Source: Ulota crispa (lineage: Eukaryota; Streptophyta; Bryopsida; Orthotrichales; Orthotrichaceae). Taken from it: DNA of 64,000 bases. A model generated the notes under the pieces. The model was not told where the DNA came from, did not search any database, and saw nothing but the letters and a program-made list of their open reading frames with translations. Made by a program: the position numbers and the translations under genes. The stretch spans positions 23,150,002-23,214,001 of the forward strand of contig OY987242.1 of assembly GCA_963920765.1 (NCBI GenBank), given 5' to 3'. This document shows, in pieces, positions 2,023 through 57,671 of the stretch. Every line of letters begins with the position of its first letter. Within the stretch, counting starts at the first letter, position 1.

Positions 2023-4452
2023 ATGGAGAATCTTCAGGAACATGCAGAAGGAAATGAAGGAGTAGAAGAACCCCTCTCCGCGCCAAGGGGAGAAAGCAAA
2101 GTCCGGCTACCAACGGAGCAGGAGATGGGCTGGGGAATAGAGTCCCAGCCAAAGCTGCCATCACCAACACTCATATACAAGCGTGCTGCGATCTCGGAAG
2201 AGGAGGAAAGAGCAAAGACAGCTCGCGAAGAATCGGCAGAGCCACTTATTAACTCCAGCTGGAAGCCATTGGTAGAACTTTCAAGGGAGCAGCTCAAAAA
2301 CATAAGATCAACACGCCAACTGACGGCCAAACAGTTGGTACATGGAAGAATTTCAAGTACACACTCAGGACACCTAAACCTAGTGAAATTTCTGAAATCA
2401 CACATAACAGACCCAATCGTAGCTATTCAAATGTTAGCCAGAGGATAGTATAGGATCAAATTTGAAGACAAAGAAAGCGCGGTGAGAGGAGCAAACTTGG
2501 CAAATATGGGTTGGGGAGGTAGGGTGGTAAGCTTCAGCAAGTTGCAAGATGGCTTTATAGCCTCAGTAGGAAAAACCCTAGAAACCATAGACAACCATCA
2601 GTCTAAGTACAATTCCTAGATCTGGACACCCCACTAGTATCAGAAGACTACCTCAAACTACTGGGAAGCATGATAGGGAAGGTAGTTGCAATAAAAGGAC
2701 TACACTTGGCAACCAAACGTCCGACAGGCCCTATTGTCAATATTATAATAGCGGACACATCAAAACTTCTAGCAATGTTGAGGGTCCCGATGCTGGTAGA
2801 AGAAAGCCAAAAGCAACGGATTTTTGAACAAAGGGTCTGGTATGCTGGCCTCCCGGAGCAATGCAACAGGTGCAGACAATTCAAGCATGCAACAAAAGAT
2901 TGTCCACTAGGTTGTCAAGGTAAGCAAACCGCAGCTAAAAATTTGCCGGCATCAGAGGAATAGGCATCAAATGAAGATGACTTCACATTGATCAAAAGGA
3001 AAAAACCACGGAAAGAACCAGCATTGGAGGAGAGGGAATCTAGGAACCTAGCAATCACACACAAAGGGCCAACATCACACACAAAGAGATCCAACAAGAA
3101 CGAGGGTCTTGCACCAAGGCCAATCCTAGATATGAACTTCCCTCCCTTAAAAAGCTTCACTAGTCCGCAAGGTGGCAAAGATGGGAACGGAGGCTCGAAG
3201 TCAACAATATACAAAACAAACAAGGAACAGGGAAAGACAGGGGCCACCGACGCTGACAAGGAGGCGGACCCTCCAACGCTCAAGGAACATTCCAGGGGAG
3301 CCCCAAGGAAGGAATTCAACGCAAGGAAAACCCCCAGCAAGGACCTCCCCCCAACTTCACAGTGAAGCAAGGAAAGAATAGAAGACAATGACAAGATGTC
3401 AACACCGCTGCAAGCTCCGAGCAATACAAATGGAGGGGGAGGAAACACCAAACGGGCAACCACACATCTGCCAAAGAATATGTGGTCCTCACTCTCAGTA
3501 GAAGAGATCAAAGAAACCTTCCTAGTAGAAAACAAACCCAGTGGGATGGAGGGGCCAAAATTCCTCACCATCTGGCCGGTGGTCTACAAAATAAACGAGC
3601 AAAGGCAAAAAGTACTATTGGAAGTTAGGGGAGGTGTCCCGGGCCTACAAGACCCGACATCGTTAACATTTACTATCCAAGACCAAGGAATCAAAAAGGT
3701 CAAAGGGAAAATCTTGACAAGCCTGAGGGAGTACCTAAAGGACAACCTCAGAAGACCCCCCAAACTTGCTCAATGGGAAGCTATAAAGTGGCTAGCTAGA
3801 TGGGATGGAGACGGAGAAGCACAAGAACTCACAATTCTTGTTGCAATCTACGTTGCTCCAAAAGCAAAAGCGAGAAGAATGGCAGCAAAGGCGAGAAGAA
3901 TGGCAACGGTTGCGTGGTGGGAAACCAAAACAATCACAAAGCTCGCACATTGGCGAGGCAGAGTGAAGGCCAACCAACTACTAAAGGTTTCGGCAAAGTT
4001 GAATGGAGATATTCAGCTCAATGCGGACTGGCACGCTGGTATCAATGCGTTGCTAGAACAACCCAATAAATAGGATCCCTTAGCGCGTAATCTGCCTTAC
4101 TCAATTATAATTGGGTCGAAAGTCGGTAAGTCAGAAACTAACTATCAGAAGTTCAGGAAAACAAACCTTGACGATGGTCGCCCTACTCTCAGAGGGAAGA
4201 TACCTGGAATTCTACCTGCATGAACTTGGGATATGTGCCGTTTGCAGCATGAGTACTTCTACTACACGAGAGGAAAAAGGAGAACCCTGCGTCGAAAAAC
4301 ACACAAACTCCATGACGATGAACGAGTCAACTAAGGCTCTACAAAAGAGGCCAAGGGTGTTAGAGGCACCCCCAACCCCAATGACAGCAACGTCCACAAT
4401 AAAAGACAGGCTGCAAGAGGACGGCTTGAGCTCGAGATCATCAGCCTTGTAA
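2023..4452 (+). pseudogene. LINE ORF1 (nucleic-acid binding protein), broken
   Basis: ORF1 opens with an ATG at 2023 and an acidic N-terminal stretch. It is then read in pieces across several stops. Around 2845-2915 it carries a CCHC zinc knuckle, CNRCRQFKHATKDC, with C-x2-C-x4-H-x4-C spacing. That knuckle, after an upstream region resembling the DUF4283-type domain, is the usual plan of plant L1 ORF1 proteins, which bind the element's RNA. A lysine- and proline-rich low-complexity tail follows. A C-homopolymer at about 4459-4468 lies in the short gap before ORF2. The exact end of ORF1 is uncertain because the frame changes between 3365 and 4452. Confidence 0.7.
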
Positions 4453-4489
4453 TAAATTCCCCCCCCCCTATACCAAGCAAAAACCAGAG

Positions 4490-5640
4490 ATGATGCAAGA
4501 AGGCCTAACACTAGCAACATTCAATATCTAAGGCTTTGGAGTTAGGACTAGAGGCGCAAAGAAGCAAGTATATATAAGAAGGATTTTTGAGAGGATGGAA
4601 GTCCCACCACGAATTGTATTGCTGCAGGAGCACTGGATGGAAGAGCAACGTTGCAAAAGGTGCCGAAGCCTATCATTTCTAGGAAGCCTGCAAGCATGGA
4701 ACTTTGCGACCAAAGAAGGAGATAGGGTGAGATGGCGAGCAGGCACGGCAATTTTGCTAGACTTGACCATAGCAACACAAGTCAAAGAAGGAAAAATCCT
4801 AGCTCCAAGGAGAGCTCAATACATCAAACTTGAAACGGAAGGAAACATGAAGCTAGTAATTATGAATGTGTATACCCCAAACTCACCAAACAAAAGAAGG
4901 GAGCTCTGGGAGATGATACTAGACGCGGACATCCCAAGAGACGCATTCATCCTTGTTGGGGACTTTAACATGGTCGAGGAACAAAACAATCGAATGGGCA
5001 ACTCCAGATTTGGAAGCACCACATGCCAACAAGAGCTAATGGCGTGTTTGCGCCTGCTTAATCACTACGGAATGGGAGACGTGTACACCTTGGATCTCTT
5101 CCACACAAAAACAAGCAAAGTCTATACTTGAGAAAACAACAGCAGAGGAGCCACTCAAAGAGCAGCACAAATAGACCGCGTTTATGTGTCCCAGAATCTG
5201 TGCGATTAGGGAGGAGTGTACCAAGCATATCCCCACACGCAGATCTCGGACCACGCGCCAGTAACGTTAGGAGTTTTCCCAACTTGTAAAAGAGAAAGAC
5301 GGAGCAGCATGCGTCCCTCTGCATTAAACAAGCCACAGTCGCATAGAATCAAGGCGGCATGGTCTAACGCACCTAAACCAAGGGAGGGTGAATTGTGGAT
5401 ACAATGGATAGAGGAAGCGCAAGTCTGCACGCTCAAGAAGGCGCATATGGTACACAAAGAGCACTCAGCCTATAGATACAAGGAAGAACAAGAGGCAATG
5501 AGACAGGTACAACGGGTAGAAGAGTACCTGCAAGGGAACCAAGGAGACCGGAGGGCCACAAACACACTAGAAGCAATGAGATCCAAGTTGCACAAGCTCA
5601 CAAAAAATATCCTTGATAAACGTTTCCACTAGGCATCAAC
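4490..5640 (+). pseudogene. LINE ORF2, AP-like endonuclease domain
   Basis: ORF2 appears to start at the ATG at 4490. The first residues, LTLATFNI then a stop then GFG, match the start of EEP-family endonucleases. Further motifs follow in order: LLQEHW with the metal-binding Glu, NVYTPNSPNKRRELW, LVGDFNMV, IDRVYVS, and SDHAPV with the catalytic Asp-His. This domain nicks target DNA to prime reverse transcription. Stops occur after the NI motif, after KVYT near 5131, after LCD near 5208 and near 5630, so the frame is dead. The motif order and spacing leave little doubt about the family. Confidence 0.85.
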
Positions 5641-7300
5641 AAGATGGGTAAGAAAAGGCAACAGGGGTTCAAAGGAATTCTTCAAGGCTCATCAAGTGTA
5701 CAGACCATGCACCACCATAGCACAGATAGATGTACACGGCAGAACCCTCACGGCCCAGAATGAGAAATTGGAAGCCATCAAAGACTTCTATCACGGTCTC
5801 TACGCCACGGACGGGAAATTAGCCAAAGTCCAATGCGCCAGAGCCGAGGTGCTTGAGAGCACGCCTAGAGTGGTTGCAGCAGATCACAATGCTAAACTTA
5901 CTAGGCCAGTCTCACTCCAAGAAATCCAAGGGCAATTAAAGCACTGCCTAGTGGGAAAGTGCCAGGAGTTGACGGCATCATAACCAACTTCTACAAAGGC
6001 GACGGGGAAAACACAGACAAAATACTCGCCATAGCATTGGCAGTCCAAGAGGTGTTTGACACCGGGGAGATGAGCGCGGCCCACAACTAGGGGGTGATAA
6101 CGCTGATTCACAAGGGGGGCCTAGCAGGTCTGATTTTGAACTACCGACCAATCACTTTACTAGACGCCTTCTACAAAATGATAGCCAAAACGTTGGCTCT
6201 CCGACTCCAAGCAATATTCCCAAACATTACAAGACCAAACCAGACAAGGTTTGTACAAGGGAGGTGCATCCTTGACAATGTGTTTCTTGCCCAAGAAGTG
6301 ATACACTACGCGGAGATCTCGAGGTAGAGGCTGGCTCTAATCCTATTGGATTTTGAAAAAGCCTACAACAAGATTGAATGGCACTTCATGGAAGCTGTGT
6401 TAAGGAAGCAAGGGTTCTGCAAAGTGTTCATCAAGGGAGTACTCGCCTTATACTCGAACGTCACATCTAGAGTGGTGGTAAATGGGGAAGCAGGAGCACC
6501 ATTCAACCTGTCAAGATCCATAAGACAGGGGTGCCCCCTTGCACTGTTCTTGTTTAAAGTAGTACTAGACTCATTGGGCCACATGCTCTGCAACCCTAAA
6601 TATGAGGTGGAGGGGTTTCAACTCCCCAACGGTAGTATCTTCAAAGACGCATCCTATGCAGATGATACCGCCATCTACCTTAACGGCATACCTACAAACC
6701 TGGACAGAGCACTTGGAATTTTCAACACTTTCTGCGTGGCATCCAGATAAAGCATCAATTGGCCCAAAACAATGGGGATCTAGGCTTTGCATGAGCAGCG
6801 AGACTTTGACTAGGGAACAAATCTTGGCCTTAGATGGGCAAATGATGGGGAGGGCGGGCGTTACCTAGGGCCACTCATCGGTATGCAGCTAAGGCGTGAT
6901 GTCAACACCAGCCCCTTGATGACATCATTGAAAGCAAAACTAAGGTGCTACACCTCAAAAACCTTATCATTAGCAGGCCGCGTTGTCATCAACAACCAAA
7001 TACTGCTTGCTACTTGCTGGTACACAACCGCTTTCTATGGAATTGACTAGAGGACATGTGACAAAATAAGAGCCTTGATGAGAACATTTGTGTGGACTAG
7101 GAAAAGAGATGACAAAAAGGCAGTCAATGTTAAGTGGACATCCTGCATGTTACCACTCACAGAAGGCGGGGTCAAACTGATAGACCCCCACCTTCAAACA
7201 TAGGCTCTGCTTGCAAAATTGGTCGTGCAAGGGCTGATGTTGGGTGAGGAGCCGTGGAAGGCCTTGATGCTCCGCAGATTATAGAGGTGCAAACTAGTAG
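5641..7300 (+). pseudogene. LINE ORF2, reverse transcriptase domain
   Basis: Reverse transcriptase of the L1 type. Visible motifs are NYRPITLLDAFYKMIAK (about 6140-6190), QTRFVQGRCILDN, LILLDFEKAYNKIEW with the first catalytic Asp (about 6340-6380), RSIRQGCPLA, and ASYADDTAIYLNG with the YADD box at about 6652-6666. A thumb-like region follows, with the usual GRVVINNQILLATCWY-like stretch. Stops interrupt the frame several times, for example after 6327 and 6750. No RNase H domain was recognised. Confidence 0.88.
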
Positions 7301-8768
7301 GGGATTCCCGGTGGCACACCTTGGTGAATTGGCTCTTCTTTGCAAAGGGGACCAAGAAGGAGAAGGACTCGGCACTCATGAAAGCATGTCTACATGCCTT
7401 CTCGCAGATTAAACAACAGCTTATCCAAGCCAAATTGGCGATAGAAGCCCAAATACTCAGACAACCCCTCTTCGGGAACCCGCACATACTGGAGGATGAT
7501 GGAACTTCGCTCGGATTTGGCCCTAGCATCAGGTTGCACCTATGGGCACAAGCAAGAGTCCACTAGATACACAACCTTTGGTCCAAACCCAAGGAGAACT
7601 GGTTACGGCTCCCGAAAATATTCATGCTACTTCTAGCCCATGGAAGGGCAACTAAACAGGGAAAGGAGAGATGCCTCAAGGCAATATCACACATACCATG
7701 GGATGCAAGAAGCGGGGAGTCGACGTGGTCCAAAGGAGATAGGGCCTACTATCTGCGGCGAGACTACTTCTTCTATTTCAAGGATCCCGGGTCGATTGAC
7801 AACATGGTCACTTGCTTCCACAAATTGAACGGGACCGATAGGCTCTTTGGGGAGGAGCAAAGCTAGCCACAGCCACAACATCCATTACTACTAGCAAGAG
7901 TAGTGCTATGGGAGGCAAAAAACAAAAATTTCACAACGTGCAACCCTAATTCAAAACCATGGGGAAGAGACCGAATCTGGGCCTACCTAGGGTATGCACA
8001 AGAGAAACTCACCTGGGATCCAGGGGAGTGGGAGTGGAAGGAGATGGCAAATTGCCAAAGGCTCCGTTCTTTGCCTACACCTCAAAGCGAGGGTACAAGA
8101 TACAATTGAAGACGGAAGGGGAACACCCCACATGCAAGTCTCAAATGCTCCAATGGGGCTTCTCAGCAACACAAGTGAAACACTTCTATCGATTCTTATG
8201 GCATGCTTCAAGGCCCCGTAAGGAAGCGACCTTTATATGGCTGGTAATGAGCAATGACATAAACATAGGAGATCGGCTGAGATGGGCAGGGGGACAATAC
8301 AACATATCATGCAGCCTCTGCCCAGATGACTTTGAATTGCAACGGCATCTGCTATGGAGTTGCCCATTCTCTAGGGAAGTATGGCAACGTTACAATTTAC
8401 TAGCTTGCAGAAGCAAGATTCTAGAAATTACATGTTATGAATTAGCGATGTTGGGGCACTTTGACATCAGTTGCACAAACAAGGAGTCAAAGTATGTCTA
8501 CTTGCACCAACCGTGGGATCTACTAAGAACCTTTTTACTCTGGCAAATATGGGTCACGCGTTCCGCCAAGAAATTTCAAGAATAAGAAGTGAGCAAGGAA
8601 GCCACTCTCACAAGAGCATGGGTAAACACAATGCATGCAAGAGCGGCAGTTTGGAGAAACATGCCCGAGGTGATCAAGAACCAGGACACCTTGGCAGATC
8701 TAGAGATTCTATTCTATAAGGAGTGGTCGCCCAATTTTTGTGAGATAGGGTCAAGAGTATATCACTAG
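7301..8768 (+). pseudogene. LINE ORF2, C-terminal zf-RVT-like region
   Basis: The end of ORF2. The best part, about 8040-8585, contains KEATFIWLVMSNDINIGDRL, then a Cys/His cluster CSLCPDDFELQRHLLWSCPF and REVW. This is the arrangement of the zf-RVT domain that ends plant LINE polymerases. The frame continues beyond a TAA near 8584 to a terminal TAG at 8766-8768. Earlier parts, 7300-7960, are open only in pieces. About 95 bp of non-coding 3' sequence follow before the right target-site duplication. Confidence 0.75.
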
Positions 8769-25172: not shown

Positions 25173-27089
25173 AATTATTTTAATTTTATTGAAAGTCATT
25201 TGACTACAAGTTCATTCTTTGCTAACTTGAATTTTTTACTTTTTTTCTTATAATTAACTGCACTCCAAGTCGTAAACTTGTAATTAAAATAAATTTATCT
25301 AACCTTAGCGCATAAATTCAAAACCAATAAATGCCTATTTGTAGAATTTAATAATTTATCCACTAATATATACTAATGTGAGATAGTGCATCCTTTGATC
25401 ATTCTTTTATCATTTCTTGTAGTAAAAAATTACAACACGTAAAATAACTGAAATTATACCTGTTTAAAACCAAGCTATTAATTATTTTTTACGTTCTTTT
25501 AACAAATTTTTATTAATCAACATTCTTTTGTATATTTGATTTATTTTTTATTTACCAACAAAATTTTAATAATTACATTCACTATGAACACCATATTTGT
25601 TATAATGAGAGAATGAGGACCTCTCAAAATAAACAAGTTGATCTCAACCAAAATCACCAATTTCCATTATAATGAGAGTTTTCAAATTAAAAGAAGAGTT
25701 TTATCTCAAATAAAGCTGAATTGACATAAAGCCCTTCAATTTTAAATCAAATTTGAAAGTTTTTCTTGTCAATTGAGCTCAAATTGAGCTGAATTGAGAG
25801 TCAAATTGATCTAAAATATTTTTGAATTTCCTTTAAAATACATCTCATTTCACTGGAATACTCTTATTATAATGAATACGTTGATAATGTACCATACCTA
25901 ATTTTATTAAATATTAATAATCTGATTTTTGACATTTTTCCTTGTTATTTCATATCTTGAATTTATATCCCCCAATATCTTTTGAAGTGCAACATTTTTT
26001 AGAATACTTTAAACACATTTAAGTCTTGACTTAAGGTAGGTGACCAATTTTCAACCAAGTTCTCAATTCTATCCCTTATGTACCCAAGGTGATTATTTAA
26101 GTTTCAAAATGAATACCTTAGGTGCATGGGATTCAAAATCAAGAGTATGTTCTACAAATGACAATTTTGGCTTATTTAACACTCAAAACTTAAAAAGAAT
26201 TGTATTGTCACTATAAAAATCTATGTCCTAATTGATACGTCTGAATTGACTAAATGTGTCCAAAAAGACAAAAAGACTGTCAAATTGGATAATTTGTGTA
26301 CATATAGCCATGTTGATTTGGACATATTTTTGTCATTTTGGATAGTTTTCATTGTAATGTGTATATGTTTGGAGGAAAATGGATTTATACATAGTTCCTT
26401 ATTATAATTTCATGTTTGGTGATGTTTTAGATGTACTATCTAGTCAACAATATAGTTTACATTTTTTTTAGCTTGAAAATTCAATATTGAACATAGCTCT
26501 ATCAATTTTATATCGGATGAATCATAATTTCTTTGTAGTGTTGAAAAGGTATCAAAGAAGAGTTAAATTCAAAATCAAAAAAGAAAATATAAATAAATTC
26601 ATATATGTATCAAATCAAATATGAAAAATTTGATAAAAGATAATGTAAAGTTCAAGCATGGGTTTAAGAATAATATGAAAAATAATGGGATGAAATTATA
26701 AATATTGTCTCAACATTACACAAAAACCTCATATTTATAAAAACCTTCGCAGTAATAAACCCCAAGAACTGTGCACTCAGTCAGCAAAATTGTGAAATCT
26801 CTAACTCATGTTATAATAACCTATTTGCATATGAAAATTTCAAATAAAATATAAACTAATATTTTTTGCAAAAATATGAGTATTACTTCTAAACCATAAC
26901 TACCAAAATATCAGTAAAACAAAACATGACAAAAAAATAAAATGTGAAAAAATAGAACTAACTAATAAAATATAAACTGGAAAACAAGTGAAATAAAATA
27001 AATGACCTCCCAATTCAAGCAACACTAGACCGTTAGAAAAAGACACGATTTAAATACTCAACGACAAACTTTACTCCACATCACCTCTT
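25173..27089. other. AT-rich non-coding DNA
   Basis: Very AT-rich with no open frame, RNA gene or bounded repeat recognised. Confidence 0.45.
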
Positions 27090-27289
27090 CTAGGCTTTAT
27101 ACTTGTGACGACTCAAAATCGCTCTTAAGTCAAGGATGTATGCATCTTTGCCTGTACCTCCTCCGCATTGATGCTCCATGGATGTGGAGTAAGATTTGGT
27201 TGAGTTTGATTGTAAACCTAGTCTAGAGATGAGTTCGTTTGGGGAGACTATTTTACATAGGTTTGCAAGACTCTTTCCATTATACTTAA

Positions 27290-28960: not shown

Positions 28961-31144
28961 TACAACGACACAAAATAAACCAGTTTAATTGAACAAGCCT
29001 TTCTCAAGAAAATTCTCATTCGGCAGACTAGAAAGGAATGAAATCAACATACAACCATGCAATTAACATCCAAACCAATTTGATATTAACTTTCAGCAAT
29101 ACAAGCAACAATTGATAAACTTCATGCTCACCAAAGAATCTAAACCAAATATCATTTACTTCCAACACTTGAATTCCTTCCCATTAGAGCTCTAAAATTT
29201 CTTTCTCCTTACTGATCTTACAACTTGGAAACACTCTCAAATACAGTACAATACACTCCAAATTGATTGATCATAACTCAAACCAATCCCACTTGGATTA
29301 CAACTTCAATCTCAACACAAACACACACAACAATTTCACAATCCAATTTGAATTTAAACAAACATGACAACACAACTTCCACTGAAATAATATTCTCTTA
29401 ACAAGCACAATTTGCAAAACAACAAAAATAGCCACTTGGCTAGACTCTCACGTTTCATGCAGTGGGTCCTCAAAATGAGTTCTTTCTACCTATTCGTCAA
29501 ATTTAAAGTTTTTAACACAAATTACATATTCTACAATGGCCAACTTTTTTGTCTTTTTGCTTTAGGATTTGCTAACCTGTAACGAAGTACCAATCCGAGT
29601 GAAACCTTCACGTGTCTCTAATTCCATGGTATTGTGAAAATCATTCTTAAAAATTTGGAGCTTGATACAACACATTGATTTCATTACCTTTTGGATGATA
29701 ACATGATCATGACTTTAGACGCATTGAAGAATTTTTTTGATTTATATTTGAATTAAGGCATAATGATAATATTCAGGTAAACCGCTTGTAATGCGATTGT
29801 ATCAAGACCAAATTCTTGAAAAGAAATAAGCATAATAGAAAGATATTAAAATATATACATATATGTATGTACCTACTACATTATCTTCAGCAGGATGCTG
29901 CTGCTTACCCTTTTTCAATTTCTTCAAGATCTTTTTGTTGACGTTCCGTCAATCCATTTTCTTGAACAAAAAACAAATCATAATAAAGTTGTCAAGAATG
30001 CATTATGTATTAAATTAGAAAAAAATATTATACGATGAGGTTTTTGAAATTTTCATTTTTTTTCATCTTTTAAGGGATTTAAAGTGAATATTATGATGAT
30101 TTTTTCAAGATCTTACATTAGAGATGAAACACCTTTTAGGAACCATCAAAAAAACTCACTTCTAATCATCAAGTATCCTCACAAATGCAAGATTTAATAT
30201 TTCTAAAATAATACATTTTGGAAAAGTGTTTTTCCTAATTTAATGGCCGGTTCCACCGCATAGTTGGGATTATTACGCTTATAGCCTTATATTGATAAAT
30301 AGTATTGGCAACAGTAATTACAAAGCCCGCCATTTAATGTAAGCAATTTCCTCAATGTTACCAACATCAAATGTTAATGCATACAATAATTGTCAACTAC
30401 CATAACTTTTAGGAATATGGTTTGTTTATAAATTTATGTATTGAATTGAAACCACAAAGTTACGATAGACTATTCATCCACATAGGTGAGAAAAAAACGC
30501 CCATCATCAATTAAATGACAACATCAATTTTTTAAAAAGAAATAGAGAAATAACTGCCAACTCACAAGAATGACAAACAAATATCCAATTCCAGAAATTT
30601 GACCCATACATTAGATTGTGATCTTTTCTAACAATTCTACAAGTGAAAATTCAAATTAGCTGATAAGTTAAATGAATAATGCACACATGCATATCCATCA
30701 TAAAATTAATAAAAGTCAAATACATGTCTAGACTTTTTGACTATAGAAACCGTTTATGCCGATGAAGTTTCAACTTAGAGGTGGTTTTAAAATAATTCAG
30801 AGGATTTTTCTCAGTGCCTTTATCATCCTTTTTGTTCTCTTCACCCTCTTCTTTAATGAAAGAATTTGTTTCTTCCTCCTTGTTTGAATCCAATACAGTA
30901 TTTTGAATTTTTGATGATTTGGAATGAACCATGAATGTCAAGCAACGCTCCATGCATGCTACTTCTTAAATTAGACTACTTGAAATTCCACATAATGAAT
31001 TAAACTTTATAAAAGCTGCAAAATGATGGAGAATGGTCAAATAGAAAAAACAAGCTTTCAAGTAAGGCGGAAGCAATTGAGAAGAATAACAAGTATGTTC
31101 TATTTAATGATATTTGGATTCCCTTAAGGATGATTCTAATAAAG

Positions 31145-32294
31145 CTACCAGTAATCATGACGATTCAAAATTGCTTTTAGGTCAAGGATGTATGCATCTT
31201 CGCCTGCACCTCCTCCACATTGATGCTCCATGATCAACTTTTTTGTCTTTCTGCTTTGGGATTCATTGACCTGTAACAAAGTATCAATCTGAATGAAACC
31301 TTCACATTTCTCTAACTCCATGGTATTATGGAAATTATTCTTCCCCCTTCAAATCACATGCACCACTCCATTGCACATGTCAAACTCAAAGTAATTCCAT
31401 AAGATTTCAAAATAAAATGCCCATCGGATGTGTGGAAGCCGTTTGCTTGTCCTACTAAAGCGCCGCCATCTAAATGAATTGAAGCCCATATACCAAACGT
31501 ATAGTTGCTGCTGTTATGGTCCATGTGAAAGTGGTTGCCAAAATCCTCAAGGATGTACGTGATGTTGCTGGAAAAGGTATAATCATTGATATATGATTTT
31601 TTTAGCTCTTCGTCTGACGTGAAGCTAAATTTGGTATTTGCTAAGGTCGGCACACCTGCAAGTAAGAAGTTGGTTCTAACCTGTATGAACAATCGATGGG
31701 CCAACAAGCCAAAATGCCTCCCATACAAAGAAGAAAGGGTCCATCAAATGGTCACATGCCGCTGGCGCCAAGCCTCACGTGTAGTGGGAGTCTTCTGCGA
31801 AGTTGGGGAGGGAGGAAATAATAAATTACAAAGCCTTTTTTATACCATGTATCCATAAAAAATATCACGTAAATTTAATTTAATAAGAGTTGCATGAAAT
31901 ATTTTTTGAACTCCCAAATCCAAACTGATTGTAAGCAAAGAATTAAAAAACATTTAATATGCGGAATTAATTTACCCATGCACCACCTTGCCGCGTACAT
32001 CTTCCTTGACCTTGTTGCTTTGTTGCAATTTATCCAATTGGCTTTGGTCCTCTCGGTCATGAATGATGTAGTGAGGCCCTTGTATTCATCTCGCTTGACG
32101 CCATTCATGGTATCAAAATGCAAGAATCTCACCACATGAACCACCTCATTGCTATCTACGTCTAATACCACCACCGTGTTCTTGTACAAGCGAGTGTAAA
32201 CACCAAGCAAGAAGTTTAAGCGCGGGTACGCATTGTCTATGACATGCTCATCTTTGCGTTTTCTCATCACGTATGCACATGTAAAAATGAACAA
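31145..32294 (-). pseudogene. TET/JBP-like 2-oxoglutarate/Fe(II) oxygenase, damaged
   Basis: Best reading: a double-stranded beta-helix oxygenase of the Tet_JBP type, the family that oxidises 5-methylcytosine or thymine in DNA. The first piece, from about 32294 to 31976, has VVVLDVDSNEVVHVVRF and MYAARWCMG, like the pre-core of fungal TET proteins. A phase-1 GT-AG intron joins it in frame to the exon starting at 31655. That exon holds NHFHMDHNSSNYTFGIW with the HxD iron ligands, then GHFILKSYGIT. The core continues, after a frame change near 31375, as FEFDMCNGVVHVI, a UGA where Trp is usual, RGKNNFHNTMELE with the second His, and a C-terminus ending RHDYW at a TAG (31145-31147). The stop and frame change suggest a pseudogene. 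The true 5' end was not found. Confidence 0.5.
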
Positions 32295-32299
32295 AGGTT

Positions 32300-33216
32300 T
32301 TTTAAATTAGTTATTAATACAACATCAAATTTTGAACTAACTAAAGTAATAAATAAATAAATGAATAAATAAAAAGAATAAGTACATGTAGTTTAATTGA
32401 CTATTGCTTTGCCTCTATTATCATTTTCTCATCTTTAGAAACTCATATGTTTAAAAATTTGGTTTCAAATCCAAATTTATTAAAATTACATGAAAGGTCT
32501 TAAAGCCATTTACTAGTAGTGTAACTTCTATTTCATTTGACCAAAATTCACAAAAAATACAGTAATGAAAATCTTAGTTAGAAATACAATTTGCTACCAC
32601 AATGATTTAGATATAACAACATCAACTGCAAATTAACAAAAAAAACTAAATTTTTTGACTAAGTTAGGAGCACTTATGGTTTGACCGCGGAGGTTAAAAA
32701 AAAGAAAAAGACATTGTAAAATTAAAATGACAAGATATATTCATATACAACAATTGAGAATTCTATAAAAGTTATGAAAAAGTGATAATAGATCAATTTT
32801 AAGTTTGGGTGGAACCTTATCCCAAAACTCATTGAATCTTTATGACTTCACACATTTAAGAATTTGGAGCTCGATACAACACATTGATTTCATTACCTTT
32901 TAGATGATAACATGACAAATTGCCATATTTATTTAGGTATGAGAAGCATAGGTAAGGTACCTACACAAGTGTCTCTACCTTGTGTGAATTACTCAGGTGT
33001 ACTATGGTACATAACAAAATGATTGATGATGGAAAACAATATTATAACATGACAATCCCAAATGCAATTCTGTGATGTATTCTTCTCTAATTCCCCTTTT
33101 TGATAAATTTTATACTTCTAACAACAGCAAAGTGTGCGCCTTTTACAAATGAAAGGAAGTCTTTTGTGTTGGTGCATATTGTTGTAATAGCATGTTCATT
33201 TCATCTCAATGCTATC
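32300..33216. other. AT-rich non-coding DNA
   Basis: No gene seen. It contains an AATAAATAAATGAATAAATAAA simple repeat near 32348-32372. At about 32850-32920 lies a block, TTTGGAGCTCGATACAACAC, also found at 29650-29700, that marks the duplicated oxygenase locus. Confidence 0.45.
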
Positions 33217-35531: not shown

Positions 35532-35964
35532 GGGAATAGATATGTGTACTACACCCTTTCAAGTACTGTACCACACCCCATAGTAAATTTAAGATTTCTA
35601 GCATGAAAAAATTGAATTTGAGAATTTGGAATTCAGATTTGGACTTAGAGACCATGATTTTGTTTAGAACCACAAAAATAGTTGCAATTCAACAACATCC
35701 AATGAAAAAGCTTATTTTTTTTTACAAACAAAAGTAAAAGTAACATTTTTCTCCTGACTAAACTTTCTCATTGGGTGTTGTTGAATTGCAACTTTTTTTG
35801 TGGTTCTAGACAAAATCATGGTCTCTAAGTCCAAATTTGAATTCCAAATTCTCAAATTCAGCTTTTTGATGCTAGAAATCTTAAATTTACTATGGGGGTG
35901 TGGTACAGTAATTGAAAGGGTGTGGTACAGTAATTGAAAGGGTGTGGTACACATATCAATTCCC
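35532..35964. mobile_element. Foldback element FB, copy B (Mutator-like)
   Basis: A 433-bp foldback whose ends are GGGAATAGATATGTG and ACACATATCAATTCCC. A perfect 9-bp direct repeat TTATGGTTA flanks it at 35523-35531 and 35965-35973, the duplication length of Mutator-like elements. The arms match 12340-12751 over stretches such as GGTTCTAGAC and CCCAATGAAAAAG. On the right, GGGTGTGGTACAGTAATTGAAA is locally repeated. Confidence 0.8.
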
Positions 35965-37165: not shown

Positions 37166-37630
37166 CTCCCTAAAGGACCGTTGCCCCCTGGAAAGGATCG
37201 TTAGACTTTAAGGGGACAAATGGAATTTTAGGCGTGTACTTACAACTAAAATATTTTATGTACTTTAAACTTTTATGGAAGATGGGAAATTCAAAGATTT
37301 GCATAGGTATCTAATTTTTTCATCATTCTAACGTTTATTGAGGAAGTTATGCATGAATTTCTGGAAAACAAAGAAGGCGGACAGCCCAAAAACTTCTTTC
37401 AAAATTGCATTCTTTCAAAATAAAAATATGGAATTGGTTCTTTAGATCTACATGTATGTAAGAAGCCTTGAATCATTCAATTTTGATTGATGAGATGAAG
37501 GTGATGATAAGTTTTACTTTGCAAATAAGTATGGAGTCTTTCAAAACCATATTTACTAGCAAACAAAAACTTCTTATAACTTCTACTTTATTAATCAAAA
37601 TTAAAAAAAAATTTTGAACTGCCTGCTATT
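37166..37630 (-). mobile_element. Truncated T1-type element, reversed
   Basis: The end CTCCCTAAAGGACC is followed by GGGGACAAATGGAATTTTAG. The latter is the reverse complement of the T1 right-hand region near 1190-1210. The opposite half is missing. Confidence 0.5.
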
Positions 37631-37639
37631 GGGTTGAGA

Positions 37640-39400
37640 AGAGCATGCCTTAGAAACACGAAGGGTGTCTCCCTGCAATTGTGCGTTGCTAACTAATATT
37701 GTCTTCGGTCTTGATCTTCATTTTTCAGATCTTTAATCTTCAGTCTTCTGTTGACCTATTTTGTGGCTGGCTCTAGGGGTATAAGAGTAAAAATAGGGAT
37801 AAGAGTCCACTAGATACGGGACGGGTAGATTAGGATAGCAAACACGAGCTGTTGTTCGTATGACGGGATCCTAAATTCAAATTCACGATTTGCTGGCCAA
37901 AACTCTAGATCGTGAGAACAAAGCAAGTCTCGATCATGTGGGTGATCAATCCCACTTCGTCACTACGGCAATAAATGGGACTAAATTTGGTTTATCCTAA
38001 ACTATCCGCAACAAAGTTTACAAAATGGAATGGAAATGAATTGTCAAACGAGCCTCCAAAATCGGCTAAGAATAACAAAGCCACATCCCACACATACATA
38101 AAAAAATAAACCCATAATATTCCTCTTAAAGTTTTCATATCTTCAGATCTTCAAGTCTTTATGTTTTAATAAAAACAATGAGGAAAATCACAAATAACAA
38201 GTCCTAGAAAGGTTGCAACCTTCAATCTAGTGCCACAAATGGCTCAAGGATCTAAATGGTAAGTGTAATAGCAATTTAGAAAGCTCTTTTAACCTTCTAA
38301 CATCTCTTTAATTTTTTTTAAATCAATCTAAGCTACTATCCAAAAGTTATGCGGGTTCAAAGTAGAGGCTTTTCTTCCTCCTTACAAACTAAACACTGCC
38401 TTTATAAACTTCTATAACTTTTGTTCTACACATCACTCATAAAAATGTAATATCAATTTCAAAAGATGATACCACTAGCTACAACTTGTAAAATTTTCAC
38501 TTCAAATAAAATTTTGTCCAAAAATTCTAGTCAATCAAAATGTGGGTCTCAATTTTTTAGAGAGCACCCAAATCTCCAACTTTTGCATACTATAATTTCT
38601 TCAATAAGATTTCAAATGGAATGATCAAAGATAATTTGGAAAGCTTTGACAATAAACTTTCACTTCTAAAATTTTGAAAAGAAAATTTTATATTGTTCAA
38701 AAATTGTAGCTCTTCAAAGTTTTGGGCTTCTCATAACAAAAGGGCAGCCACCTCTAATTCTTCACACTCTCATAACTTTTTTTTTCAAGCTTCAAATTTT
38801 GAGTTTAAGGACTTTTTAGAGAGCTGAGACTAAGATAAACATTCCTTTCAAATAATGTTGCAAAATAATATATAGATCATAAGCTATGGTTTGTCAAAGT
38901 TTTAACCTTTCTTCATAATTTGATTTTTTGACTTTAAAATTCAAACATTCATAACTTTTGCATCACAATTCTAAATTAAATTTGCAAACTCATTTTGAAA
39001 AGGTAATCACACAAAAAACAATTTTTCTAAATATCAATTCAAAATCATGTATATACAAATAATTCTCTCACATCAAAATTTTGAAATTTCTTCTTTCTTC
39101 CTACCAACATTCATATACTAATTTTCAACAACTAAAAAATCTCTCTTCCTTAATTTTGACCATATCTAAAGTAGGAAAGTGGAGCACATCAGTTCATGCC
39201 CCTCTCTATTCTAACCCCACCATAGATGTCAAACTCCTTTTTTTTTTACACCTTTCCCATTCATTTCTAAATCCTTATTAATTTTTAATCAAACAAAAGC
39301 AAAATATATGAGCCTTCCAAAATCTCTAAATAAACATATAAAAATGATTAAATTACAAAATAAACACCACCGTAAAATAGCCACGTGCTCTTGCGAATAT
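37640..39400. other. Non-coding DNA, part with higher GC
   Basis: 37640-38030 is less AT-rich than its surroundings and may be a decayed transposon of unknown type. The remainder is AT-rich. No coding frame is supported. Confidence 0.35.
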
Positions 39401-39419
39401 ATAATAGCATCAAACGCTT

Positions 39420-39670
39420 GTCTTCAGTCGCCAAGTCGTGGACTTGATGGCTGAAGAAGCAATCGTCTTTGGCTGCCCGCTAGTCTAAGTTCAAATCTCA
39501 TTGGACTCGTCGAGCAGTAATGGTGGCCCACGACTTGGCAGCTAGTGATGCAAGAAATTTGCCTAGTCAATCCGCTACCTACCCTCCTGAGCTGTACATA
39601 TGACAAGATAGCGCAGTGCACTGGAATCTATGGCCTACGCGCTGTCACCAAACCGTGGTCCTCACCACGA
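39420..39670 (+). mobile_element. Possible tRNA-derived SINE
   Basis: A GC-richer island with TGGCTGAAGAAG (A-box-like, near 39447) and AGTTCAAATCTC (matches the B-box GWTCRANNC, near 39488) about 40 bp apart, as in pol III SINE heads. No target-site duplication or second copy was found, so this stays tentative. Confidence 0.3.
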
Positions 39671-39786
39671 CCATCTCTTTTGCTTGAACTGTTGCTTTAT
39701 TGAAATCAACACAAATATAAATAAATAATGAGTATCTATGTGATAAAGAAATCTCTATTAGGATACCGTTCTCTACCGCTTTTTAG

Positions 39787-55200: not shown

Positions 55201-57288
55201 TCACATAAAATCCTCTTCCAACTCCGCCAGGGATTTTCCCTTAGCAGCGATATCCTTGTTCGATGTCATCTTATCCTGAACCATGAGCCTTGTATAGCTC
55301 CGTATTTCTGCCTGTCTCTCTTTCTCCAGCCGTTCTATTTCCTCTCGTCGTTTCTGCATACCAATAAAACATTGGACATATTGACGACTCAATAAACCCT
55401 ATAATTAACAGTCACCTGCTTTAATTATTCCAAAAGAATCATCCATAATTTATCGAATGTGCATAGCACCAAGTCCAAAAAGACAGAATAGTACCTTCTC
55501 TTTGGTATGTTGCTTCCTTTCATTTCTTTCTGCAGCGTTGTAAGCTTCTCTTTCAGCTGCATAAAACAGAGTCATCAAGGATGTCAATCCGTAGAATCTT
55601 AACATTGAGTGAGTTTCGAACAAAACATGGTAGCTTTCTGGTCGAACATGATTAACGGAGATAAGAGACAGAGACGGTATTCCACCTTTCAGATCTGGCG
55701 TCTGTTCAGTTTTGGTTTTGTTCAAACGATTCACAATTTCATTCTTGCGTGTCTCAATCCGGATCGTTCGCACCTGTAAATGCAGTATCCACTTAGTACA
55801 ATTTAAACAAATGAGTCAAAAAAGTCAACAAGGAAACAAGTATCTTCTAAAACAAGGAAGTGAGTCTACAAAATCTCACCAGCTTAGAGTTGTGAAAGCC
55901 AACTTGACCAACGTCCATGCTTGGAGTCTTCCTCAGGTTGTACCAAGGTGTGTACACAACATCCAAGTTGTTGAGCTTGTTCCCTAGAAAAGATAACGCT
56001 CGGGTGTCCATTAGGCTCAACCTCAACAGCAAAATTGCACTCACTACACCACAAGCATTTCTGACGTGTAATAGACGAACGCAACAATCTATACACTACA
56101 CAGACAGTAACTTCAGAGATTGAGAGTGACCGCATACCTTGGATAGAGTTAGCCTTCACAAGCTGCGCACAATCTTCAAGAAGTTCAGGAGTGATCATCT
56201 CCATAGTCTGGCCCTTGTGCATTCTTAGGTACACATGAGCAGATGACAATTTATCCACATGAAACCTGTAAAAAAAACAGTGCATCTTCTTGTTATTATT
56301 ACAGAACTTCACTTCCACTTCGCAACTCATGTAACGACTGAACGGCAATACAAAACCAAATACATGATGAAACCTGTTCAGAATTCCGGAAGCTCCGAAC
56401 TAAAATCAACAACTATAACTCCAGACATTGCAGGCCTTCAGCACCAATTGTGACTTATCGTCAAATGCAGATCAAATCGGCACCAGGCCAAAAGAAATAG
56501 ATCCTTCAGTAGTTCAATTTCTTACACATCCAATCTGACGTCCTTCTACAGAATCTTTCCTTTCAACAGATGTACGACAGCCGAATAAACAACAATCAAG
56601 GCCTTATTGAACATCGCCTAAAAGCGAATAGCAGCCTTCTCTCATACGATTCTAAACTCAGGGCCATTAATCATTCGACAATACAATCATTATGCCTCCA
56701 TTTAAATTGGTGAAATCAAAGACAACATAGATGATTGGTCTCTACTTTTCATGAAGAAGGTTAAGGAATCCGTAACTCATAGAAATTACACGAAATTTAA
56801 TTAATCCGAAAATTTTCAGTCGGCAAAAAAAAACCTGACAGACAAACTCTAAAAGGTCCACAAACCGCAATTTCAAACACAAAAAACTGTGAAACCTCAT
56901 CTCGCACACCAACGAAACTCGCTGCCTCGACTAATTCCAAAATCCACGGAACGAAAAAATTACAAGAAAACGAAATCGACAGCCAAACTGATTTCTAGTG
57001 CAAGAAGCAGAGACAATAATTCACAAAAGGAATAAGTACTGAAAGTCCTCAGAAAGACGGAGGAGACGTTATCGCCAAACCCTAATTTCGTTTCACAAAC
57101 ATCACGACATGTTATAATAAGAAAAAAGAGAACCAGTAAGCGCTGTTTGTCTTGAAAAGGGAGGAAGGACTGTACCAGATGTCCTCGGGCAAGCCGTACT
57201 TGATGAGGTCCTCGTTCTCGTGCTTGTCGAGGCCCATGTAGATGATGTAGTCCCCGACCTCGGAGCGCGCCTTGAAGTAGAAGACCAT
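55201..57288 (-). CDS. CCDC25: CCDC25 homologue (NFACT-R domain, coiled-coil protein)
   Basis: Six coding exons join in frame: 57176-57288, 56138-56265, 55880-55983, 55686-55773, 55495-55556 and 55201-55353, giving 215 aa against about 208 in human CCDC25. The N-terminal half (about 1-115) is the NFACT-R/DUF814 domain: [64 protein letters not shown] and [10 protein letters not shown]. The C-terminal half is a charged coiled coil ([30 protein letters not shown]) ending [10 protein letters not shown]. Human CCDC25 has been reported as a membrane sensor of extracellular DNA; the plant role is not known to me, and NFACT-R domains elsewhere act on tRNA or ribosomes. All introns are GT-AG, and the start is fixed by the conserved MVFYF. 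Confidence 0.95.
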
Positions 57289-57540
57289 GGTGGCGGGCGG
57301 AGAGAGCGAGGGCGGGGCGGTGGGCGGTGCGCGCTCTTGCCTCACTGGACTTCGGAAGCGGACATGGCGATGGTGGCAGGCCAGGGGAGTTAGTGCAATT
57401 GACGGAGCAGCAAGGCCTGCACCTCGTGAGACGAGAAGAGAGAGGGAGAGAGAGGGAGAGAGAGAGGGGCTGCGGGAAGCAAGGACAAATCTACGAATGC
57501 CGTAGAGTAGAGTAGATGGCTCCACCCCCACCGTAGTTAT
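57289..57540 (-). promoter_or_regulatory. 5' UTR and promoter of the CCDC25 homologue, with a GA tract
   Basis: A GC-rich upstream region with a (GA)n/(TC)n purine tract at about 57436-57469. Such TC tracts are frequent in plant 5' leaders. The transcription start is not determined. Confidence 0.4.
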
Positions 57541-57671
57541 TTCATAAACATGAGCCGTCAATCTACAATTTTTTTCAGAACATGGAGAACACGGAGAACA
57601 TGGAGAACGGAACCTTCTCCTGTATAATTCTTCAAAATTTTATTAGCGGTTGGCGCTTGCTACCCGACACA

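Follow-up and report, generated by a model that had tools for sequence, protein, structure and literature searches.

The gene copy under study lies on the minus strand of the window, by which we mean the whole 64,000-nucleotide stretch of DNA that was analysed. Comparison with paralogues shows that the gene consists of an upstream exon A, intron 1, exon B, intron 2 and exon C. Exon B (31976..32278, reading KNTVVVLDVDSNEVVHVVRF ... ARWCMG) was delimited from its open reading frame and by comparison with the loci L021 and L022 and other paralogues. It is followed by intron 2 (31846..31975), placed by paralogue comparison, whose donor GT is kept at 31975-31974 and whose 3' end is approximate. Exon C (31145..31845, with its terminal stop at 31147-31145) contains most of the PF20515 domain and was recognised from the profile match at 31357-31743 and from paralogues. 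Its start is also only approximate, because a frame read from 31845 meets an extra TAA at 31828-31826 and an extra frame change before TREAW; either the copy carries more lesions or the acceptor lies elsewhere. All the peptides quoted in the preliminary description are found on the minus strand. The GT-AG intron by which it joined two pieces in frame, given there without coordinates, was not borne out, as intron 2 lies at about 31975-31846 to judge from paralogues. A join in frame from ARWCMG to VPTLANT would need an acceptor near 31657; this was rejected because it would delete LSSLYGRHFGLLAHRLFIQV..., a stretch within the PF20515 match (profile position 76 onward) that paralogues have conserved.

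The predicted Fe(II) site can be read from the sequence of exon C. Its HxD part is the HMD at 31519..31527, and the second predicted Fe(II) histidine is at 31328..31330, within FHNTMELE. Both had been pointed out before and both are present, except that the histidine sits in the next open reading frame past a frameshift, so that the HxD and His triad of the window copy is split over two frames. Past the distal histidine the sequence is EGFIQIDTLLQVN; it has Gln in place of the Arg found in several other copies. In its conserved part, the window copy has in-frame TGA codons at 31746-31744 and 31353-31351 and a frameshift near 31395. Moreover, both expected acceptors have lost their AG: at intron 1 the window reads ACAT as against ACAG in L021 and GTAG in L022, and at intron 2 it reads ACATG as against GCAAG in L021, L028 and L030 and TGTAG in L009 (the AG at the intron 2 acceptor is also missing in L023 and L027). 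Two or more in-frame TGAs, a frameshift and the loss of both acceptors mean that the window copy is dead; the decay proposed earlier from one stop and one frame change is thus confirmed, and its extent had been put too low.

A second copy of the gene (29536..31148, minus strand) adjoins the first head-to-tail and was recognised from direct repeats within the window. It comprises an upstream region (31148-30574), an exon A-like piece (about 29960-29880), the start of the intron 1 element described below (about 29790-29647) and a fragment of exon C (29648-29536) that reads KNDFHNTMELETREGFTRIGTSLQVSK. The repeat pairs that link the two copies are 29541-29648 with 31235-31342 (85%) and 29647-29706 with 32856-32915 (95%). 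The middle of the second copy is missing, intron 1 being fused straight to exon C, and the exon C fragment retains both the distal His and the Arg. Further on, 25394..27180 on the minus strand is a 3' flank common to other copies, matching L025 in three pieces; within it, 27106-27180 is 91% identical to 31158-31232.

In a profile search, the open reading frame at 31357-31743 of the minus strand matched Pfam PF20515 (2OG-FeII_Oxy_6, 'Tet-like 2OG-Fe(II) oxygenase superfamily') with E=1.6e-16 and 61.4 bits against a curated cut-off of 27 bits, over profile positions 76-189 of 211. Searched alone, the pieces on either side (31145-31348 and 31977-32306) gave no profile match. PF20515 was matched by all 10 jointly aligned copies, and no other family was common to all 10. 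The match lies far above chance, and the proposal that a plant genome here encodes a Tet-like Fe(II)/2OG oxygenase stands. Its narrower form, membership in the TET/JBP family PF12851, was not upheld: a whole-genome profile search with PF12851 (Tet_JBP) gave no match, which is weak evidence taken alone because no control genome gave matches either, and the best of the 10 scanned copies, the single one to touch this profile, did so with E=0.097 and 12.3 bits, below the curated cut-off of 34.9 bits. When a profile built from 10 copies was run against solved chains, none was reached at E<=10, and an AlphaFold model of one partial single sequence, the window frame, was uninformative (pLDDT 37.7). 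Searches of viral contigs, prokaryote contigs and phages found no relatives.

The genome that carries these genes was read as that of a moss. The chlorophyll a/b-binding family, present on contigs C1-C9, has 56 matches in it, and the LEAFY C-terminal domain is matched by two exons, one of which reads KMRDYVHCYALH...GAWCQACY. We take Asp and Cys at the two specificity positions of LEAFY to be a moss mark. The plant-type genome of the preliminary description is thereby borne out and can be narrowed to a moss on the rule for the LEAFY residues.

The search of this genome (274.8 Mb in 157 contigs) showed that the window copy is one of many, and all match and locus counts given here are lower bounds. 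With the window frame as a protein query, at least 46 places were found at E<=10, the query itself included. With PF20515, at least 58 exon-level matches were found at E<=10, all on contigs C1-C11 (6.3 to 41.4 Mb each, C6 left aside). Clustering of the 58 matches on the same strand and within 2 kb gave at least 44 loci, of which at least 37 are above the cut-off and seven have no stop in any match; those above the cut-off are spread over 10 of the contigs C1-C11, C7 having none. Two loci with identical scores, C10:378078 and C10:542415, may have arisen by recent duplication or reflect the assembly.

That an intact paralogue may exist elsewhere had been anticipated, and the search of the same genome did find better-preserved ones. 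L022 (C4:11.297 Mb; PF20515 E=1.7e-34, 120.1 bits) retains HKD, the distal His and the Arg with no stop, and its intron 2 has GT...AG ends and joins the exons in frame; its upstream exons were looked for and not found. L026 (C1:17.263 Mb; E=7.3e-39, 134.4 bits) has a frame of 325 amino acids that covers profile positions 23-209 of 211 and is intronless across both intron sites; its drawbacks are a Cys at the Arg position and a stop in the upstream part. Judged from their sequences, then, there are dozens of related copies in the genome, and one looks intact over the enzyme domain. L026 (4393-5367), L031 (8162-9327) and L020 (1209-1818, close to L026) form a sub-group of the Tet-like copies. 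L026 and L031 both lack the introns seen in other copies; the sub-group possibly consists of retrocopies or is a separate branch. Neither a poly-A tail nor a target duplication was recognised by eye in L026 and L031, and retroposition is therefore not demonstrated.

Residues were tallied over 20 fetched loci and the window, some of them holding two copies (L002 and L003 were dropped as repeating L030 and L025, and L014 was unreadable). HxD is intact in 14 of the 22 readable copies, the other eight having HxN, YxD or YxN. The distal His is kept in 13/18, and an Arg past it is present in 8/15, L022 and the tandem fragment of the window included. Where present, this basic residue would be the candidate for binding 2OG. 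An HxD...H triad in a single frame was found in L022 and L026. Among the stop-free loci, HxD and the distal His are followed by Arg in L022, by Cys in L026 and by Lys in L025, where the first copy was tallied as His and Lys and an overlapping frame shows Arg. L024 has HxD, the rest being unreadable; L021 has HxN, L031 has YxD, and L023 has YxD with Tyr for the distal His.

Substitution rates were estimated by the Nei-Gojobori method from codon alignments no shorter than 45 codons, and 114 of 216 rows were left out as saturated. In the 102 usable rows, in which some pairs are present in both directions, the median dN/dS is 0.45: 81 rows fall at 0.25-0.6, seven below, 11 at 0.6-0.9 and three above 0.9. 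Examples are L021-L030 (0.42, 215 codons), L023-L028 (0.53, 155) and L031-L029 (0.60, 151), and the window copy gives 0.32 with L025 (93 codons) and 0.41 with L030 (115 codons). The youngest or closest pairs have higher values (0.63-0.91 for L026-L031, up to 1.18 for L028-L016). These ratios fit constraint during part of the copies' history followed by decay, and are not evidence of present selection.

Intron 1 of the window copy contains, at 32383..32915 on the minus strand, the diverged part of a MITE-like element of ~630 bp, identified by repeat comparison. Its terminal inverted repeat (TIR) is CAGGTAGTTTACCC, flanked by a TA target-site duplication, and the element occurs at the same place in L009, L021 and L030. 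By its look it is a mariner-like MITE. Free-standing elements of ~630 bp with the TIR CAGGTAGTTTACCCTATTATCA are found at L037 (3181-3808), L038 (3270-3898) and L039 (3014-3631), and the 22-base TIR end has 98 exact matches in the genome as against none for a reversed control pattern, several of the matches being inverted pairs ~600 bp apart. Because many of the 41 matches cover only the ~530 bp just upstream of exon B, this part was at first considered as the terminal repeat of a mobile carrier. This candidate was rejected in view of the three free-standing elements: since the element also stands alone elsewhere in the genome, it is a passenger of the intron and not the end of a carrier. As it occupies the same intron 1 site in the window, L009, L021 and L030, it was a passenger of an ancestral gene copy. 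The family thus appears to have spread mainly by duplication of DNA, because copies keep their introns and the intron 1 passenger, four of them demonstrably.

Taken together, we consider that the window most probably holds a dead copy from a birth-and-death family of moss Tet-like Fe(II)/2OG nucleobase oxygenases (PF20515), the nature of the substrate being the inferred part. What the sequences show is family membership, copy number as a lower bound, the motif residues, the decay and a partial past constraint. In a live copy, H-x-D and the distal His would hold Fe(II), and the Arg about 13 residues past that His would bind 2-oxoglutarate. Such a protein would oxidise a nucleobase at a methyl group, and its substrate would most likely be DNA. 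We infer the use of 2OG, the oxidation of bases and a nuclear role, and it is the family name and the order of the motif residues that suggest action on DNA bases. Repeated duplication at the DNA level, introns included (some copies being intronless), would spread the family, and pseudogenisation would often follow.

The copies could encode oxygenases of the same fold whose substrate is RNA, a protein or a small molecule, since 'Tet-like' is the name of a profile, and the lack of a PF12851 match above the cut-off and of any solved structure within reach would agree with this. Against it, the Tet-like family is the only one matched by all 10 scanned copies, one of which weakly touches Tet_JBP, if below the cut-off, and we regard an activity of this other kind as rather improbable. 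In a second alternative, a DNA transposon would carry the gene, as happens in fungi, perhaps to remove silencing methyl marks, so that the dispersed copies would be transposon copies. TET-bearing transposons of fungi have been described (PMC12730594), and the dozens of dispersed and mostly decayed moss copies share flanks beyond the gene.

However, when open reading frames of at least 60 amino acids were compared among fourteen 10-kb stretches (about 5 kb on each side of a copy) and 20 kb of the window, the Tet-like protein was the only widely shared cluster (14 of 15 stretches), the next cluster occurring in five stretches and lying antisense to exon A. No shared transposase frame was found beside the copies in these 15 stretches. 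KDZ transposase, a family that carries some fungal TET genes, has a single match in the genome, on contig C152, where a fragment is interrupted by two TGAs, and was rejected as a carrier of the Tet-like genes, while the TIR element of intron 1 is a passenger, as it also occurs alone. On these flanks and the KDZ search, the cargo model of fungi is not supported here, and we consider it unlikely for the moss genes. By far the least probable explanation is that the genes come from contaminating fungal DNA, or that a symbiotic fungus passed them on very recently. PF20515 is best known from fungi, and the KDZ fragment on C152 would point in the same direction; yet the 58 matches lie on contigs C1-C11, of which C1-C9 also hold chlorophyll a/b-binding matches, intron positions are common to the copies, a repeat scattered through the genome is found inside them, and dS between copies ranges from 0.2 up to saturation.

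The unusual points are the moss host and the copy number of the Tet-like genes, and we do not claim that such genes are absent from print. No moss TET gene was found in the literature as excerpted here; the papers Iyer 2013, Iyer 2014 and Aravind 2019 may mention early-diverging land plants. Within PF20515, the moss L026 is near full length, the window copy covers the shorter span given above, and the host is a moss. The order HxD...H...R is the same as in TET/JBP proteins (PF12851; human TET2, NgTET1 and CcTET), whereas the moss copies do not match PF12851 above its cut-off. Lineage-specific expansion, as in the moss copies, has likewise been reported for TET/JBP in fungi.

CMD1 of Chlamydomonas is an algal TET homologue that acts on 5mC in DNA and makes 5gmC (PMC7854593). 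It is likewise an HxD...H enzyme of the green lineage, with His345, Asp347 and His397. The moss profile reached no solved chain, and CMD1 chains are assumed to be in the set searched. The transposon-borne TET genes of fungi (PU, AG and PE types; PMC12730594) resemble the moss genes in having many dispersed copies and in HxD, whereas the PE type is marked by HxE, which none of the 22 readable moss copies has. They differ in that no transposase was found beside the moss copies in the 15 stretches compared. A 2024 paper describes plant TET homologues as 'unidentified' and says that information on plant TET/JBP genes is lacking (PMC11233409), and DNA glycosylases are held responsible for the active demethylation of plant DNA (PMC8594673).

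It is conceivable, if doubtful, that this land plant has an expanding and fast-turning family of Tet-like base oxygenases, with at least 37 loci and a few possibly live copies, able to oxidise methylated bases. If true, plants would have an enzymatic route for editing DNA marks besides DNA glycosylases, and it might be engaged in an arms race with silencing by methylation. A moss family in which at least one copy retains HxD...H...R would make it directly testable whether bases are enzymatically oxidised in land plants. Moreover, the family survives as dozens of copies, of which many are dead, and this raises the question of why it keeps multiplying.

The window also contains other repeats and genes. 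A palindromic repeat of ~400 bp (35545-35929), 85% identical to its own reverse complement, also occurs near the Tet-like loci L023, L026, L028, L029 and L033, and a repeat of ~2 kb (37618-39769) is 73-84% identical to stretches near L017, L021, L024 and L026. On the plus strand, 2023-8582 is a degraded LINE in which pieces of a reverse transcriptase (RVT_1, E=2.2e-10) and of zf-RVT (E=5.2e-13) were recognised, along with a piece resembling an endonuclease that scores under its cut-off. On the minus strand, 55887-57639 contains exons of an NFACT-R domain (PF05670, E=2.2e-10 and 5.9e-7) that probably belong to an ordinary host gene, whose start is presumably CCDC25-like.
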